DNA of 64,000 nt, taken from Leptospirillum ferrooxidans C2-3 (lineage in GTDB: Bacteria > Nitrospirota > Leptospirillia > Leptospirillales > Leptospirillaceae). The stretch spans positions 1,953,486-2,017,485 of the forward strand of contig NC_017094.1 of NCBI RefSeq assembly GCF_000284315.1, read 5' to 3'. Each line of letters opens with the position of its first letter. Within the stretch, counting starts at the first letter, position 1. Of the stretch, positions 4,273 through 32,341 are shown one piece after another. The position numbers and the translations under genes are program-made. The notes below the pieces were generated by a model that did not search any database, had not been told where the DNA came from, and was given only the letters and a program-made list of their open reading frames with translations.

Positions 4273-5640
4273 TCATCGTTTGCAGACCACCATTCCCCTC
4301 ATTCGAACAATCAGGACATAACAGAACGATGACAAAAGAATTGTGGGAAGAACAAAACCTGCAAAGGAACCCACACCTGGCCATAAATGACGGGCCCCAT
4401 AAAAGAAGGCGACCCCTGTCCCAAGAGCAAAAAAACCTCCTGGATTGACTCCACCCTTCCCCCCCCAGAGAGAAGAACCCTCATCCACACGGGAGAAGTC
4501 CTCCCGTGAGAGCTGACCTTTCCGGCAAAAAAAATAATCGGTCAGGACAATCGACCAAAGAGGAATGAATATACCTCCGATTGTCGTCAAAAAAGTCGTG
4601 AAGTAATCGATAAATGAGGAAAAAAGAAGCGGAAGAAGGGCTGTGAGACCCTGAAGGATGGAAACAGCGCGAAGCGCCCTTCCCGGATTGTCCGGATTCC
4701 GACCAGGGAAAAGAGAAGAGAGACCCATTCCCGCGCCATAAAGATTGGATGAACTCACACTGATCGATGACAGGAGAATCACCAGAAGAGCCACAAAACC
4801 GAGACCCATTCCTGAAAGCATCTTGCTCGGATCCGAATCGGCCATATCAAAATGTCCCTTTGCGATCGCAAGCGAGAGCATCGATATCGCACCGACCCCA
4901 ACAAACCATGTCTGACCTGTCCAGAGCCCCCAGAAAGCTCCCATGGTGGCGGCTTTCCGGGATGTCGCATGGCGTGCAAAGTCCCCTACCTGAAGCCAAG
5001 TCCAGATATTGATGAAACTGATATCAATCAAGGTGGAGACAGAAAGTGCTGAGGATGGAGGGGGAAAATGGGGCCAGTGGGCCAATCCCCATTTTTCTAA
5101 AACAACCCATGATTCCCAACCCGCGAAAAAAAGGAGGCCAATCGAGGAAATCCACTTGAGGAGACGAATGGCCGGAAGGCCAAAGGCCACGACCACCCCC
5201 TGAAGAAAGGAAATGAAAAGAAGGCTCGAGACTGTGGCCCAAAATCCATGCAGACCCAAAAGGGCGAGAATGGATGTTGCCCCCATATAGGTCGTCACGG
5301 TGGTCCATCCCAGCTGGACAATCGTTTCCATGGGGCCCATGAACATCCGGGAGCCTTCAACCCCCAGTACCGGACGTGCAAGCATGACCGTCGATGCCCC
5401 GGTTTTTCTTGAGATATAGGCTAGCGCCGCCCAGGGAAGAATGATGAGGGGGGTCAGGAGAAACACGTTCCCCAGAAGGAACGGTAGCCCGGAAAGAGCC
5501 AGAAGACCACCAAAGTACCAGCTCGATGCGTTGGCCGAATCCCCAAACCAGTTCCAGAAATTGTCCATAAATCCCAAACGGCCCTCCGGAGCGGACCCGT
5601 CAGACAGCCCAGAGGAGCCTTTGGATGGCGGGAGTGTCAA
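4273..5640 (-). CDS. NCS1-family nucleobase/thiamine-precursor permease
   Basis: A 455-residue membrane protein with about 12 hydrophobic segments. The N-terminus (NFWNWFGDSANASSWYFGG) and the following RKTGASTVMLARPVLGVEGS loop match the NCS1 cation symporters that carry cytosine, allantoin, hydantoin or hydroxymethylpyrimidine. Start TTG 5640 is supported by GGAGG 6 nt upstream. I see no TPP or purine riboswitch in the short divergent leader at 5641-5731, so the substrate stays open. It sits 52 bp downstream of ndh on the same strand and is divergent from a 60-residue membrane protein gene. Confidence 0.72.
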   Translation of the reverse strand: MTLPPSKGSSGLSDGSAPEGRLGFMDNFWNWFGDSANASSWYFGGLLALSGLPFLLGNVFLLTPLIILPWAALAYISRKTGASTVMLARPVLGVEGSRMFMGPMETIVQLGWTTVTTYMGATSILALLGLHGFWATVSSLLFISFLQGVVVAFGLPAIRLLKWISSIGLLFFAGWESWVVLEKWGLAHWPHFPPPSSALSVSTLIDISFINIWTWLQVGDFARHATSRKAATMGAFWGLWTGQTWFVGVGAISMLSLAIAKGHFDMADSDPSKMLSGMGLGFVALLVILLSSISVSSSNLYGAGMGLSSLFPGRNPDNPGRALRAVSILQGLTALLPLLFSSFIDYFTTFLTTIGGIFIPLWSIVLTDYFFCRKGQLSREDFSRVDEGSSLWGGKGGVNPGGFFALGTGVAFFYGARHLWPGVGSFAGFVLPTILLSSFCYVLIVRMRGMVVCKR

Positions 5641-10154: not shown

Positions 10155-11099
10155 CTACTTCCCCGGGGAATGCTGTCGAACTTTCCGCTTGTAAGTGGTA
10201 CTTGAAAGACCAGTCAACTCGCTTCCCAACCGGACATTGCCACCGGACTTCCTGATCGCATCCTGAATGTACCCCCGCTCAAACCCTTCAAGCGCAACGC
10301 CAAAAAGCGGAAAAACATCCTCTTCCTCTGCCGAGACACCAAAATGGTGCCATTCAATAGGTCCAGCGCCACAAAAAAGGGCTGCACGCTCGGTTTTTCT
10401 GGAAAGCTCACGAATATTCCCTTTCCATTCATGGGACTCAATACGGTCAAGGAGAGTTCTGGAATAAGAAGGGGGAGACTTTTTGAACCGATCGGAATAT
10501 TGAGCCAGAAAATATTGAAACAGGGGAACAATATCCTCCCGGCGCTCTCTCAATGGAGGAAGGATCACCCTGAACGTCGAAAGCCGAAAAAACAGATCCT
10601 CCCTCAAATCCCCGGCCTCCTTCAAATCACTCAGGGAATCATTGCTCGCAACAACAACTCTGGCGGATGTCTTCTTCGTTTCAAGACCACCCACAGAAAG
10701 ATAGGTTGACGTTTCAAGAACACGAAGAAGTTTTGGCTGATGCTCGGGAAGCATTGCATTAAACTCGTCGAGGAAAAGGGTTCCGCCATTGGCGGCCGCA
10801 AACAGGCCTTCCTTGGCCATATCAGCGCCCGTAAAGGCTCCACGGACATGGCCAAAAAAAATTTCTTCAAAAAGCCCCTGGGGGATTCCTCCCATATTCA
10901 CGGGAACCAGATTCCCGCGATTCCTGGGAGAAAGCTCATGAAGGCACTGAACAAAAAGCTCCTTTCCTGTTCCCGTCTCTCCCTCAACCACGACCGGTAT
11001 GTCATGCGGAGCCAGAAGACGCATCTGCTCAATAACTCGGGAAAAAACCGGAGATCTGGTCTTTAAGAACATTCTCAGAAAACCACTTTCGACATTCAC
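10155..11099 (-). CDS. PspF-like sigma-54-dependent transcriptional activator
   Basis: A 314-residue bacterial enhancer-binding protein. The AAA+ domain begins almost at the N-terminus: Walker A GETGTGKE near residue 40, the sigma-54-contacting loop GAFTGA near residue 88, Walker B GGTLFLDEF near residue 105, and an arginine-finger region FFRLSTFRVILPPLRER. A Fis-type helix-turn-helix ends the protein (GNVRLGSELTGLSSTTYKRK). There is no receiver, GAF or PAS domain, as in PspF, so activity is probably set by a partner protein or by expression. The start is GTG 11099 behind AAGGAAAAGAA. It is divergent from a gene with a sigma-54 promoter, its likely target. Confidence 0.9.
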   Translation of the reverse strand: MNVESGFLRMFLKTRSPVFSRVIEQMRLLAPHDIPVVVEGETGTGKELFVQCLHELSPRNRGNLVPVNMGGIPQGLFEEIFFGHVRGAFTGADMAKEGLFAAANGGTLFLDEFNAMLPEHQPKLLRVLETSTYLSVGGLETKKTSARVVVASNDSLSDLKEAGDLREDLFFRLSTFRVILPPLRERREDIVPLFQYFLAQYSDRFKKSPPSYSRTLLDRIESHEWKGNIRELSRKTERAALFCGAGPIEWHHFGVSAEEEDVFPLFGVALEGFERGYIQDAIRKSGGNVRLGSELTGLSSTTYKRKVRQHSPGK

Positions 11100-11339
11100 T
11101 TCTTTTCCTTTTCCTGATTATCCAAAACAAACAAGAGTCCCAATTGGGGGAACGATTTGCCGGATCTTATTCTGTCCTCACAGAAGAAAAAAGACGGCAA
11201 AAGGTGGCTTGAGACTTTGTCTCCGTGCAATATCAGAAAATGGAACGATCCGACATCATTCTTTCCTTGGAAGGGATCTGACTCTATCGATTGAATAATT
11301 TTTCATCTATATCGATGGATCCTCGATTTGTTGACATGT

Positions 11340-11353
11340 TTACATTAATGTAA
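11340..11353. promoter_or_regulatory. Palindrome, candidate upstream activator site
   Basis: TTACATTAATGTAA is a perfect 14-nt palindrome in the AT-rich intergenic region. It lies about 80-95 bp upstream of the transcription start predicted from the sigma-54 promoter, the usual distance for an enhancer-binding protein site. A second looser repeat (ATCGA-N7-TCGAT) lies about 20 bp further upstream. The remaining intergenic sequence (11100-11489) shows nothing else I can name. Confidence 0.45.
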
Positions 11354-11407
11354 CTATCGAGTATCATTAAAAAAGGTAAGTCCTTAAAAAATATCCTATT
11401 AAAAAAA

Positions 11408-11422
11408 TGGCATGGATGTTGC
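11408..11422 (+). promoter_or_regulatory. Sigma-54 (-24/-12) promoter
   Basis: TGGCATG-N4-TTGC followed by TTT. The invariant GG (11409-11410) and GC (11421-11422) have the exact RpoN spacing, and only one position of the -24 element departs from TGGCACG. It would start transcription near 11434, 56 bp before the ATG at 11490. Confidence 0.85.
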
Positions 11423-11489
11423 TTTACATGAGATGAAACGATGACTTGGAGTCTGCTCCTTATGAACCATCAGGACAAACGAGGCTGAG

Positions 11490-12161
11490 ATGAAAAACGA
11501 CAGATCAAATATGAAGAGACAATCCAATCAAGCCAGTTTTGGCCAATATGCTTCAGATACAGGATTTTTCAGGACGATCCTTGCCGGTGCGGTCTTTCTT
11601 TCCATCCTCTGGGAAGGAAATAACGCACAGTCCGCGGAAGCGGCGGAACAGCGTGCCGCGGGCCACACGGAATATGCCCTGTCCAAAAACAGCCCTGAAA
11701 ATATTACCGGAGTGATTATTGAGATGAAAACCGGAAAATCCGGCATCACAAACATGGAGATACGATCTTCCCAGGACGGACTGGCCAATCACCCCGGATG
11801 CATTCACTCCTCGGAAGGGAAAATGGTTGATGTCGTGGTGGACCCATCGGTCGTCTATCATCCTGAACAGGGCGTTATGGTCATCATGGAAAAACAGCTC
11901 TCGCCCGATGTGACAAAGCTCTCCCCGGGGGAGTGTGTCAGCATCTCCGGTGACAAGCTTCGACAGATCGCCCCATCCGGGGATGAAGATCGGATCGAGA
12001 TCTCCTCACCTGCCAAGAAACTCAGCCGGATAGAGCGAATGGAAGCGCTGAAGATCCGTATAGAACCTATACTGACCGCAGGGAAATCGTCCCGCCCGGC
12101 TGGACAAATCCAGCCGACACGCCTGCCAAGCACTGCCTTCAATGTCAGGCAGCCCGCCTAG
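11490..12161 (+). CDS. Secreted protein of unknown function, sigma-54 controlled
   Basis: A 223-residue protein with a basic N-terminus and a hydrophobic stretch at about residues 27-41 (FFRTILAGAVFLSIL) ending near the alanine-rich NAQSAEAAEQRAAG, which reads as a long signal peptide. The mature part carries two Cys (PGCIHS, GECVSI) that could form a disulfide, a beta-rich middle, and a basic Pro/Ser-rich tail. No family recognised. Downstream of a strong -24/-12 promoter and divergent from the PspF-like activator, so it is the best candidate target of that regulator. Confidence 0.7.
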   Translation: MKNDRSNMKRQSNQASFGQYASDTGFFRTILAGAVFLSILWEGNNAQSAEAAEQRAAGHTEYALSKNSPENITGVIIEMKTGKSGITNMEIRSSQDGLANHPGCIHSSEGKMVDVVVDPSVVYHPEQGVMVIMEKQLSPDVTKLSPGECVSISGDKLRQIAPSGDEDRIEISSPAKKLSRIERMEALKIRIEPILTAGKSSRPAGQIQPTRLPSTAFNVRQPA

Positions 12162-12249: not shown

Positions 12250-13080
12250 TCACAATCTGGAAACTTCCGTTTCTGAACACTCTTCCTGATAAATATCATC
12301 AATATGTTCAAAGTTCTCTGCCAGAACCATCTCATCCCATCTGAGAATCTCGAATCGTCCGTCTTCATGCTCGCAAAGAGCTGAGCAGCTCTCCATCCAG
12401 TCTCCGTCATTCATGTAAGAAATCCCGTCAATCTGACGGATGCTTGCATGATGGATGTGTCCGCAGATCACTCCATGAGCCTCGTTTTTCCTCACAGACC
12501 TTGCAACAATTTCCTCAAAGTCGCTGATAAAGGAAACGGCTGTTTTCATCGACCGTTTGACATACCCGGCCAAAGACCATCTGGAATGGATCCCCAACAA
12601 TCGAACAATGCGAAAAAGGATTCGATTCGCCCCCAAAAGAAGGGAGTACCCCCGATCTCCCAGTTTGGCAAGCCATGGCGCATATTGCATGCAGGAATCA
12701 AACTGGTCCCCGTGCAGCACCAGAAAGATCTTCCCGTCCGCGGCAACATGGACGGCTTCCCTGGAGAGGCTGATGGGACCAAAACCAGCATGTCCAGAGT
12801 TCAGTATCGAGACCATCCAGTCCGCCATGGGATCATGGTTCCCCTGAATATAAAAGACCTTTGTTCCTGAACGGGATTTTCGCAGGATCTTCTGAATAAC
12901 AGTATTGTGTGTTTCTGGCCAGAACCAGCTTCGCCTGAGACTCCAAAAATCAATAATGTCCCCAACAAGGTACAGGTACTCCGAATCCGTGCATCGAAGG
13001 AAGTCCAGCAGTTTGTTGGCCTGGCACCCCTTCGTCCCCAAGTGAATATCAGAGATCCAGATTGATCGATATCGCGCCAT
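12250..13080 (-). CDS. LpxH/PlcP-like calcineurin-type metallophosphoesterase
   Basis: A 276-residue phosphoesterase. All metal-binding motifs are visible: SDIHLG (Asp11, His13), GDIIDFW (Asp41), GNHD (residues 80-83), HGDQFD (near 122) and GHIHHA (near 208). This is the UDP-2,3-diacylglucosamine hydrolase-like family, which also includes PlcP, a phospholipase C used to strip phospholipid headgroups under phosphate starvation. It lies 18 bp downstream of a diacylglycerol glycosyltransferase-like gene on the same strand. That context favours a lipid role such as PlcP over LpxH, but sequence alone does not decide. Confidence 0.8.
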   Translation of the reverse strand: MARYRSIWISDIHLGTKGCQANKLLDFLRCTDSEYLYLVGDIIDFWSLRRSWFWPETHNTVIQKILRKSRSGTKVFYIQGNHDPMADWMVSILNSGHAGFGPISLSREAVHVAADGKIFLVLHGDQFDSCMQYAPWLAKLGDRGYSLLLGANRILFRIVRLLGIHSRWSLAGYVKRSMKTAVSFISDFEEIVARSVRKNEAHGVICGHIHHASIRQIDGISYMNDGDWMESCSALCEHEDGRFEILRWDEMVLAENFEHIDDIYQEECSETEVSRL

Positions 13081-13098
13081 CAGATCCTCCCGATACAG

Positions 13099-14316
13099 TC
13101 AGAACCATTTTGAAAATGCCATTCGTCCAAATTTGGAAATCTTTCCAGAGAGAGACCTCCCATCTTCTTTTCTCCTGGTTTTTTTATGAAGGGAGCAAAG
13201 AACTTCCTGGCAAACAATACTGGAGGCGTCCGAACGCCCGCGCTCCTTTGCCCTTTCCTGCAGGGAAAAGAAGATTTTCCGATCCATTATCAAAGACTCC
13301 AAAAGAGATGAGGCTTCATGAAGATTCGAAAGGGATCTGGCAACTCCCCATGCTTCGAGAACATCCCTATTGTCTTCCTCCTGGCCAGGAATCGGAGCAA
13401 AAAGAAGCATTGGCCTACCCATGGCAAGGCATTCAGCCGTAGTCAGTCCGCCTGGCTTGGTCGCGACAAGATCTGCCTTTTCCATAAACTGGCTCATCTT
13501 TTTCGTATACCCCCTGACAACAATAGGAAATGGGAAATCCCCTCTCTTTAAAAAGAGCCGTCGAAAAAGGGCACGGTTGCTACCGGTCACAACCGTGACA
13601 GAGACGGGATACAGGCTTTTGGACAATTCCACTAGAAGTTTTTCAATGGGAGCAACCCCCGCCCCACCGCCCACCACAAGGAGATTCAATAGATTCTCCG
13701 GATATCGATCCAAGATCCTGTCCGTAGCCTCTCCATGGAACATGGGGTGAACGGGGATCCCCGACACACAGACCTTCTCACCTTGAACGCCCAACTCGTT
13801 CAGTCTGTTGAGCGATTCCCGGGAAGCGACAAAATACCGATCAACCCCAGGTGCAACCCAAAAAGCGTGGGGAATGATATCCGTTACCGAAACAAACAGA
13901 AGGGGAGAGAGCTCATTCATCAGATCCTGAGTCAAAAGCTCCATGGGAAGAAAGTGGGTACATAGAATGATATCGGGAGATGCGTCTCTGATGAATTTTG
14001 AAAATCCGGAAGAGAATGCCCGCGAAAGCAACGATCGGAGAAAAAAGACAGGAGGAAGAAGAGAAAAGGGTTGATCCGAAATACGGTATAAAAACCCAAG
14101 GAGCGAAGGAAAATACTTGGCCAGCCAGATATAGCCCCGGGGAACCAGATTCCGGTACAGTGGATTCATCAGGGACAATACATCGATCCCAAAAACATCC
14201 TCGACTCCCCCTTCGGATCGAAGAGAGGTCACAATCGCTTCGGCCGCCTTTTTATGGCCACTTCCGATAGAGGCATATAATACCAGGATTTTTGCCAGAC
14301 AGACCTCCTTTTCCAC
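13099..14316 (-). CDS. MGDG-synthase-like glycosyltransferase (GT28)
   Basis: A 405-residue GT-B glycosyltransferase of the MurG/MGDG-synthase type that adds a sugar to diacylglycerol. The N-terminal acceptor domain has ILVLYASIGSGHKKAAEAI and the typical GYIWLAKYFPSLLGFLYRISD. The C-terminal donor domain has GGGAGVAP, the Gly-rich KPGGLTTAECLAMGRP and PGQEEDN. The frame opens at GTG 14316, but AAGGAGG lies inside it and is ideally spaced for CTG 14298, which would start the protein directly at AKILVLY. It is divergent from the MFS gene and probably co-transcribed with the phosphoesterase. Confidence 0.85.
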   Translation of the reverse strand: MEKEVCLAKILVLYASIGSGHKKAAEAIVTSLRSEGGVEDVFGIDVLSLMNPLYRNLVPRGYIWLAKYFPSLLGFLYRISDQPFSLLPPVFFLRSLLSRAFSSGFSKFIRDASPDIILCTHFLPMELLTQDLMNELSPLLFVSVTDIIPHAFWVAPGVDRYFVASRESLNRLNELGVQGEKVCVSGIPVHPMFHGEATDRILDRYPENLLNLLVVGGGAGVAPIEKLLVELSKSLYPVSVTVVTGSNRALFRRLFLKRGDFPFPIVVRGYTKKMSQFMEKADLVATKPGGLTTAECLAMGRPMLLFAPIPGQEEDNRDVLEAWGVARSLSNLHEASSLLESLIMDRKIFFSLQERAKERGRSDASSIVCQEVLCSLHKKTRRKEDGRSLSGKISKFGRMAFSKWF

Positions 14317-14456
14317 GGGAACACCAACACTGACCCATCCCTGATCATAAACCTACCCCTACAGGGTAACAGGAGGCTCAAGAAACGATTAAAAAACAAA
14401 ATCGGACATTAGAAAAAAACGTCCAGCACTTCTTACAAAAAGGGGAAGGCATTTCA

Positions 14457-14485
14457 TTGTCAATTTTTATGGCATGATCATAAAA
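14457..14485 (+). promoter_or_regulatory. Candidate promoter of the MFS gene
   Basis: TTGTCA followed after 17 nt by ATAAAA. The -35 matches five of six bases, while the -10 is poor. It is overlapped by a long inverted repeat described separately. Confidence 0.4.
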
Positions 14486-14488
14486 ATT
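14462..14488. promoter_or_regulatory. Inverted repeat, candidate operator
   Basis: Two perfect 10-bp arms (AATTTTTATG and CATAAAAATT) flank a 7-nt spacer, 26 bp before the ATG at 14514. The repeat covers the spacer and -10 of the candidate promoter. Followed by AAAGGAG it does not look like a terminator. The cognate regulator is not identifiable in the window. Confidence 0.5.
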
Positions 14489-14513
14489 AGACAATTAAAG
14501 GAGTAAAATTTTT

Positions 14514-32160: not shown

Positions 32161-32341
32161 GGTCAAAAACTCCTTGTCATCTGTCTATCATTAATCGAAC
32201 AAAAAGAAAAAAGCGAATTCTTCTTTCAATTTGGCGGGAACATCCATTCCCTCGGAATCAACCAGAATAGGGAAACTGGCAGATTTCGTCATTTGCGGCC
32301 AATCAATGCGCCGATGAAAATTCCTGAAGGGTAGCCTCTCC

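Follow-up and report, generated by a model that had tools for sequence, protein, structure and literature searches.

A putative phospholipid-to-glycolipid remodelling operon of Leptospirillum ferrooxidans that pairs a PlcP-type phospholipase C with a GT28 glycosyltransferase

PlcP-based lipid remodelling has been documented mainly in Proteobacteria and Bacteroidota. In most of the PlcP-Agt systems (S. meliloti, SAR11, P. aeruginosa and Methylosinus), plcP is adjacent to the gene of a diacylglycerol (DAG) glycosyltransferase, the GT4 enzyme Agt, in the order plcP then agt, and DAG is the proposed intermediate. Phosphate control of PlcP has been described in other organisms (PMC4796936, PMC8528852). 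A different partner is already known from some type Ia methanotrophs, which carry a DAG glycosyltransferase of the B. subtilis (UgtP-like) type near plcP (PMC9239053).

The locus described here lies in a 64,000-nucleotide stretch of DNA (the window) from the complete, 2.56-Mb genome of Leptospirillum ferrooxidans C2-3. Both of its open reading frames are located where the initial annotation had placed them, on the same strand and with the GT28 gene upstream of plcP:

12250-13080, minus strand: plcP-type metallophosphoesterase, 276 aa, a putative phospholipase C yielding DAG from phospholipids (identities, tree, invariant ligands)
13081-13098, minus strand: 18-bp spacer with the ribosome-binding site GGAGG (13090-13086) ahead of the plcP ATG (sequence reading)
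13099-14316, minus strand: GT28 glycosyltransferase, a putative diacylglycerol (mono/di)glycosyltransferase, 405 aa from GTG (MGDG_synth, structure matches, motifs)
14304-14310, minus strand: AAGGAGG, which probably serves as the ribosome-binding site for translation from CTG 14298 (alignment of three genus members, inference)
14317-14513, no strand assigned: promoter region separating the GT-plcP operon from a divergent MFS gene, without an above-chance Pho-box-like site

The 18-bp gap reported earlier is indeed present, and the GGAGG that it holds is positioned 5 bp 5' of the plcP ATG. The GT28 protein probably starts at CTG 14298 (399 aa) instead of GTG 14316, as the AAGGAGG 5 nt ahead of the CTG is kept in the three genus members. 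Compared with the PlcP-Agt systems, the PlcP proteins are homologous (46-57% identity), whereas the partner in Leptospirillum belongs to GT28 instead of GT4 and the gene order is GT then plcP.

The phosphoesterase carries calcineurin-like Metallophos domains. In the alignment, all seven metal ligands (D11, H13, D41, N81, H123, H208 and H210) are invariant and the dinuclear site is complete, in accordance with the full metal site described originally. The protein is 46% identical to the product of the S. meliloti plcP locus. The gene of this reference protein adjoins those of an acyl-homoserine-lactone synthase and a LuxR regulator, which we take to be sinI and sinR, and the protein would then be SMc00171, the founding PlcP; its replicon is labelled pSymB, yet at 3.7 Mb it looks chromosomal. 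The identity to P. aeruginosa PlcP, which is encoded beside agt1, is 49%, and a GT4 gene is next in order there, matching the PA3219-PA3218 (plcP-agt1) arrangement (PMC8528852). As the P. aeruginosa and S. meliloti proteins are 46% identical to one another (PMC8528852), the window PlcP is as near to each of them as they are mutually. The identity to E. coli LpxH is 23%.

The initial annotation had called for a phylogeny against LpxH and PlcP and for a search for a separate lpxH or lpxI, and it had stated that its reading would fall if the protein grouped with LpxH and no other lipid A hydrolase was encoded by the organism. In a tree of 112 proteins, the split between PlcP and LpxH has a support of 100/99, and every Leptospirillaceae protein falls in a single clade within PlcP. 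The genome contains no second LpxH-like protein, but lpxI is present elsewhere in it (LpxI_C, 155 bits), and hence lipid A does not need the window phosphoesterase, and this ground for refutation falls away. By sequence, the product of 12250-13080 is a putative PlcP-type phospholipase C and not LpxH. Proteobacterial PlcPs have GNHDE at a place where the family proteins align with GNHDP and an insert of about six residues, and the choice of phospholipid may differ between the two groups.

The product of the upstream gene contains the MGDG_synth (82 bits) and Glyco_tran_28_C domains, which confirms its description as an MGDG-synthase-like GT28 enzyme. Among solved structures, it best matches a processive DAG beta-glucosyltransferase of the UgtP type (E 2e-31) and Arabidopsis MGD1 (E 3e-27). 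The motifs GxGH, TD..H..W, KPGGxT..E and PGQE..N align with those of Bacillus and Staphylococcus UgtP (YpfP), and GxGH, KPGG and PGQE are also common to plant MGD1. The identity to other compared GT28s outside the genus is 32-36%, whereas that to UgtP proteins is only 23-26%, a level at which the sequence does not fix the substrate; no PlcP is found beside the Bacillus gene read. A quick GT28 tree groups the Leptospirillaceae enzymes in a single clade (98), to which neither the methanotroph enzymes nor those of other Nitrospirota belong. We consider the protein to be a putative DAG glycosyltransferase of the MGDG-synthase/UgtP kind, which, judging by its sequence, is non-orthologous to Agt. 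No Agt (GT4) gene adjoins plcP at this locus, where the partner is MGDG_synth/GT28, and to call the pairing a variant was fair, since this partner resembles DAG glucosyltransferases and not Agt.

Both enzymes could be read differently. The phosphoesterase might be a lipid A enzyme that substitutes for LpxH, with the glycosyltransferase as an unrelated neighbor. It has the calcineurin-like superfamily fold and the metal site in common with LpxH, which is the top structure match of its AlphaFold model (mean pLDDT of 80, lid helices poor); it gives a weak match of 46 bits to the LpxH model, and automatic annotation names such proteins UDP-2,3-diacylglucosamine diphosphatase. However, the fold match is expected from the shared superfamily, and the score is far under the cut-off of 190 (190.35) bits and similar to those of the known PlcPs of S. 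meliloti (39 bits) and P. aeruginosa (45 bits), whereas E. coli LpxH scores 389 bits. Furthermore, two stretches found in E. coli LpxH, GNRD and HGDTLCTDD, are absent from the window protein. The score, the tree, the low identity and the presence of lpxI rule out its identity as LpxH and make the substitution reading extremely improbable. It is also conceivable, although quite unlikely, that the GT28 enzyme acts on a molecule other than DAG (a polyprenol, a hopanoid or a glycolipid already present) while PlcP just recycles phospholipid. The low identities given above are compatible with this, and MurG also belongs to GT28. On the other hand, the N-terminal domain is MGDG_synth, the best matches are DAG glycosyltransferases, and the gene is constantly linked to that of a predicted DAG-producing enzyme.

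This linkage was traced in 21 Leptospirillaceae genomes from genera labelled g1 to g5, the window belonging to g1. Both genes are present in 17 of the genomes, the other four being drafts of 70-81% completeness, and each of these 17 has the GT gene as the immediate upstream neighbor of plcP, in the same orientation. An overlap of 1-4 bp between the stop of GT and the start of plcP occurs in ten genomes. An arrangement held in 17 of 17 genomes is not due to chance. The flanks vary between genera: conservation of the adjoining MFS, hypothetical and activator genes is confined to the genus, and no further partner gene besides GT28 and plcP is conserved across genera. At a threshold of 1e-10, a search of 40 genomes from the rest of the phylum gave no PlcP.

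For comparison, 84,980 species were scanned and the best 80 PlcP loci were kept. Agt (GT4) adjoins plcP in about 53 of these 80 (50 found by script and three by inspection), which makes a DAG glycosyltransferase the expected class of partner. A GT28 gene lies beside plcP in only one of the 80, a metagenome genome (L069) that is itself a Leptospirillaceae member and shares an identical PlcP with family member G012. In a Parabacteroides locus (L061:4983-6904), a PlcP-like gene overlaps a PF13528 glycosyltransferase gene, a third kind of partner. In public records, such as the plasmid records behind L054-L062, PlcPs are routinely named UDP-2,3-diacylglucosamine diphosphatase and are thus hidden among LpxH annotations.

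The closest parallel outside the family is found in methanotrophs. In one gammaproteobacterial methanotroph family, GT28 is present in 18 of 121 genomes, and plcP is located 1.3-2.3 kb upstream of it in 12 of the 17 regions read. The gene between them is lplT in one locus (L173; 552 bits, cut-off 297) and, by eye, likewise in another (L185). In these Methylomonadaceae-type loci (L173:3699-6990 and L185:3300-6887), plcP is followed by the gene of the lysophospholipid transporter LplT and then by GT28, with Pho-like sites upstream, and the three genes are predicted to form a remodelling operon. Pho-like sites also precede some methanotroph plcP genes. Hence, the clustering of plcP with a gene from this broad GT28 family is not unique to Leptospirillaceae. 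The methanotrophs, however, belong to another phylum, their glycosyltransferases form a separate clade, their gene order differs, and a transporter gene separates the two genes that are directly adjacent in Leptospirillaceae. Joint acquisition of GT28 and plcP from methanotrophs was rejected, as the two sets of GT28 enzymes are separate clades in the quick tree. What appears to be new is a GT28 enzyme as the predicted partner in the PlcP pathway that is fixed across a Nitrospirota family.

We think it probable that the two genes constitute a phospholipid-to-glycolipid remodelling operon of PlcP and a non-orthologous GT28, and the PlcP-Agt-type switch proposed in the initial annotation is supported at this level by the PlcP grouping, the DAG-type GT28 and the presence of lpxI. 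The PlcP-type enzyme would convert membrane phospholipids (PE and PC in S. meliloti) to DAG and a phospho-headgroup, the GT28 enzyme would glycosylate this DAG with one or several sugar units donated by a UDP-sugar, and the phosphate-free glycolipid would replace the phospholipid. Substrates, sugar and product are those that we infer by analogy with PlcP-Agt, the step of Agt (GT4) being performed by a GT28 of the UgtP/MGDG-synthase kind. As the genome lacks a gene of the OlsB type for ornithine-lipid synthesis, ornithine lipid made by the OlsB route is unlikely as an alternative, and a glycolipid is a plausible non-phosphorus lipid. A literature search for Leptospirillum glycolipids, or for its lipids under phosphate limitation, found nothing relevant. 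If this reading is correct, a family-wide Nitrospirota operon with a non-orthologous glycosyltransferase would mean that evolution has put this chemistry together on more than one occasion, and specific glycolipids are predicted in iron-oxidising biomining acidophiles. Iron can make phosphate scarce in biomining settings.

The evidence for phosphate control differs between genera. The genome of the window has perfect tandem Pho boxes ahead of pstS, a gene for a PhoB-like regulator immediately upstream, and 70 matches to the Pho-box pattern compared to 24 for the reversed control. In the 14317-14513 region, however, the best site is no better than those in shuffled sequences (p = 0.34-0.40), which agrees with the earlier remark that no Pho box was obvious. 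A matrix built from 12 distinct sites that precede pstS in the family was then run on the GT upstream regions. In g3, a sister genus, it places the best site 147-160 nt 5' of the GxGH codon in all eight anchorable loci. The shuffle p-value is below 1/300 in four g3 loci, lies between 0.003 and 0.027 in another four and is 0.08-0.09 in the last two, these loci sharing ancestry and not being independent tests. The best-kept block of the g3 alignment is TGTCAT.G.TT.G..AT....CTTGA. Such a site at a conserved position ahead of the operon, found with a pstS-trained model, is also new. The scan gives no above-chance site in the GT upstream regions of g1, g2, g4 and g5. Phosphate control of the operon is likely in g3 and unproven in the organism of the window; the phosphate-starvation part of the original proposal finds support in the sister genus, and none in the genus of the window. 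The difference in Pho boxes between sister genera allows a direct test of whether phosphate control was lost or gained.

These data also fit, with appreciable though lesser probability, a constitutive or stress-driven supply of glycolipid by the same enzymes, for example in acid or metal tolerance, the Pho link being confined to the sister genus. The promoter regions of the three genus members lack a Pho box despite the perfect pstS boxes in the same genome. Conversely, the same operon is preceded by Pho-box-like sites at a fixed position in g3, PlcP is phosphate-controlled elsewhere (PMC4796936, PMC8528852), and a degenerate or distant Pho site is possible in the window's genus. A more elaborate scenario, which we regard as speculative and rather doubtful, is that Leptospirillaceae built an independent switch from GT28 and a PlcP whose nearest kin outside the family are proteobacterial, and that PhoB control operates in one genus and was released in the extremely acidophilic one, resulting in glycolipid-rich membranes whatever the phosphate supply.

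At 4318-4335 and 32174-32191 of the window, two sites that differ from the pstS-type pattern by one mismatch resemble Pho boxes and possibly mark further members of the Pho regulon. No canonical sigma-70 promoter above chance was found ahead of the operon. Directly ahead of the divergent MFS gene, at 14452-14499, is a near-palindrome, ATTGTCAATTTTTATG-GCATGAT-CATAAAAATTAGACAAT, a candidate operator or promoter of which the core alone is kept in two congeners. A sigma-54 activator without a receiver domain is encoded at 10155-11099 (minus strand); its control of the operon was rejected, since no -24/-12 site precedes the operon and the window-wide counts of such sites are at chance level. A -24/-12-like site with one mismatch (11408-11422) adjoins the activator gene and precedes an orphan gene (11490-12161) for a protein of 223 aa without a Pfam match. 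The activator and orphan genes (10155-12161) are both conserved in the genus.
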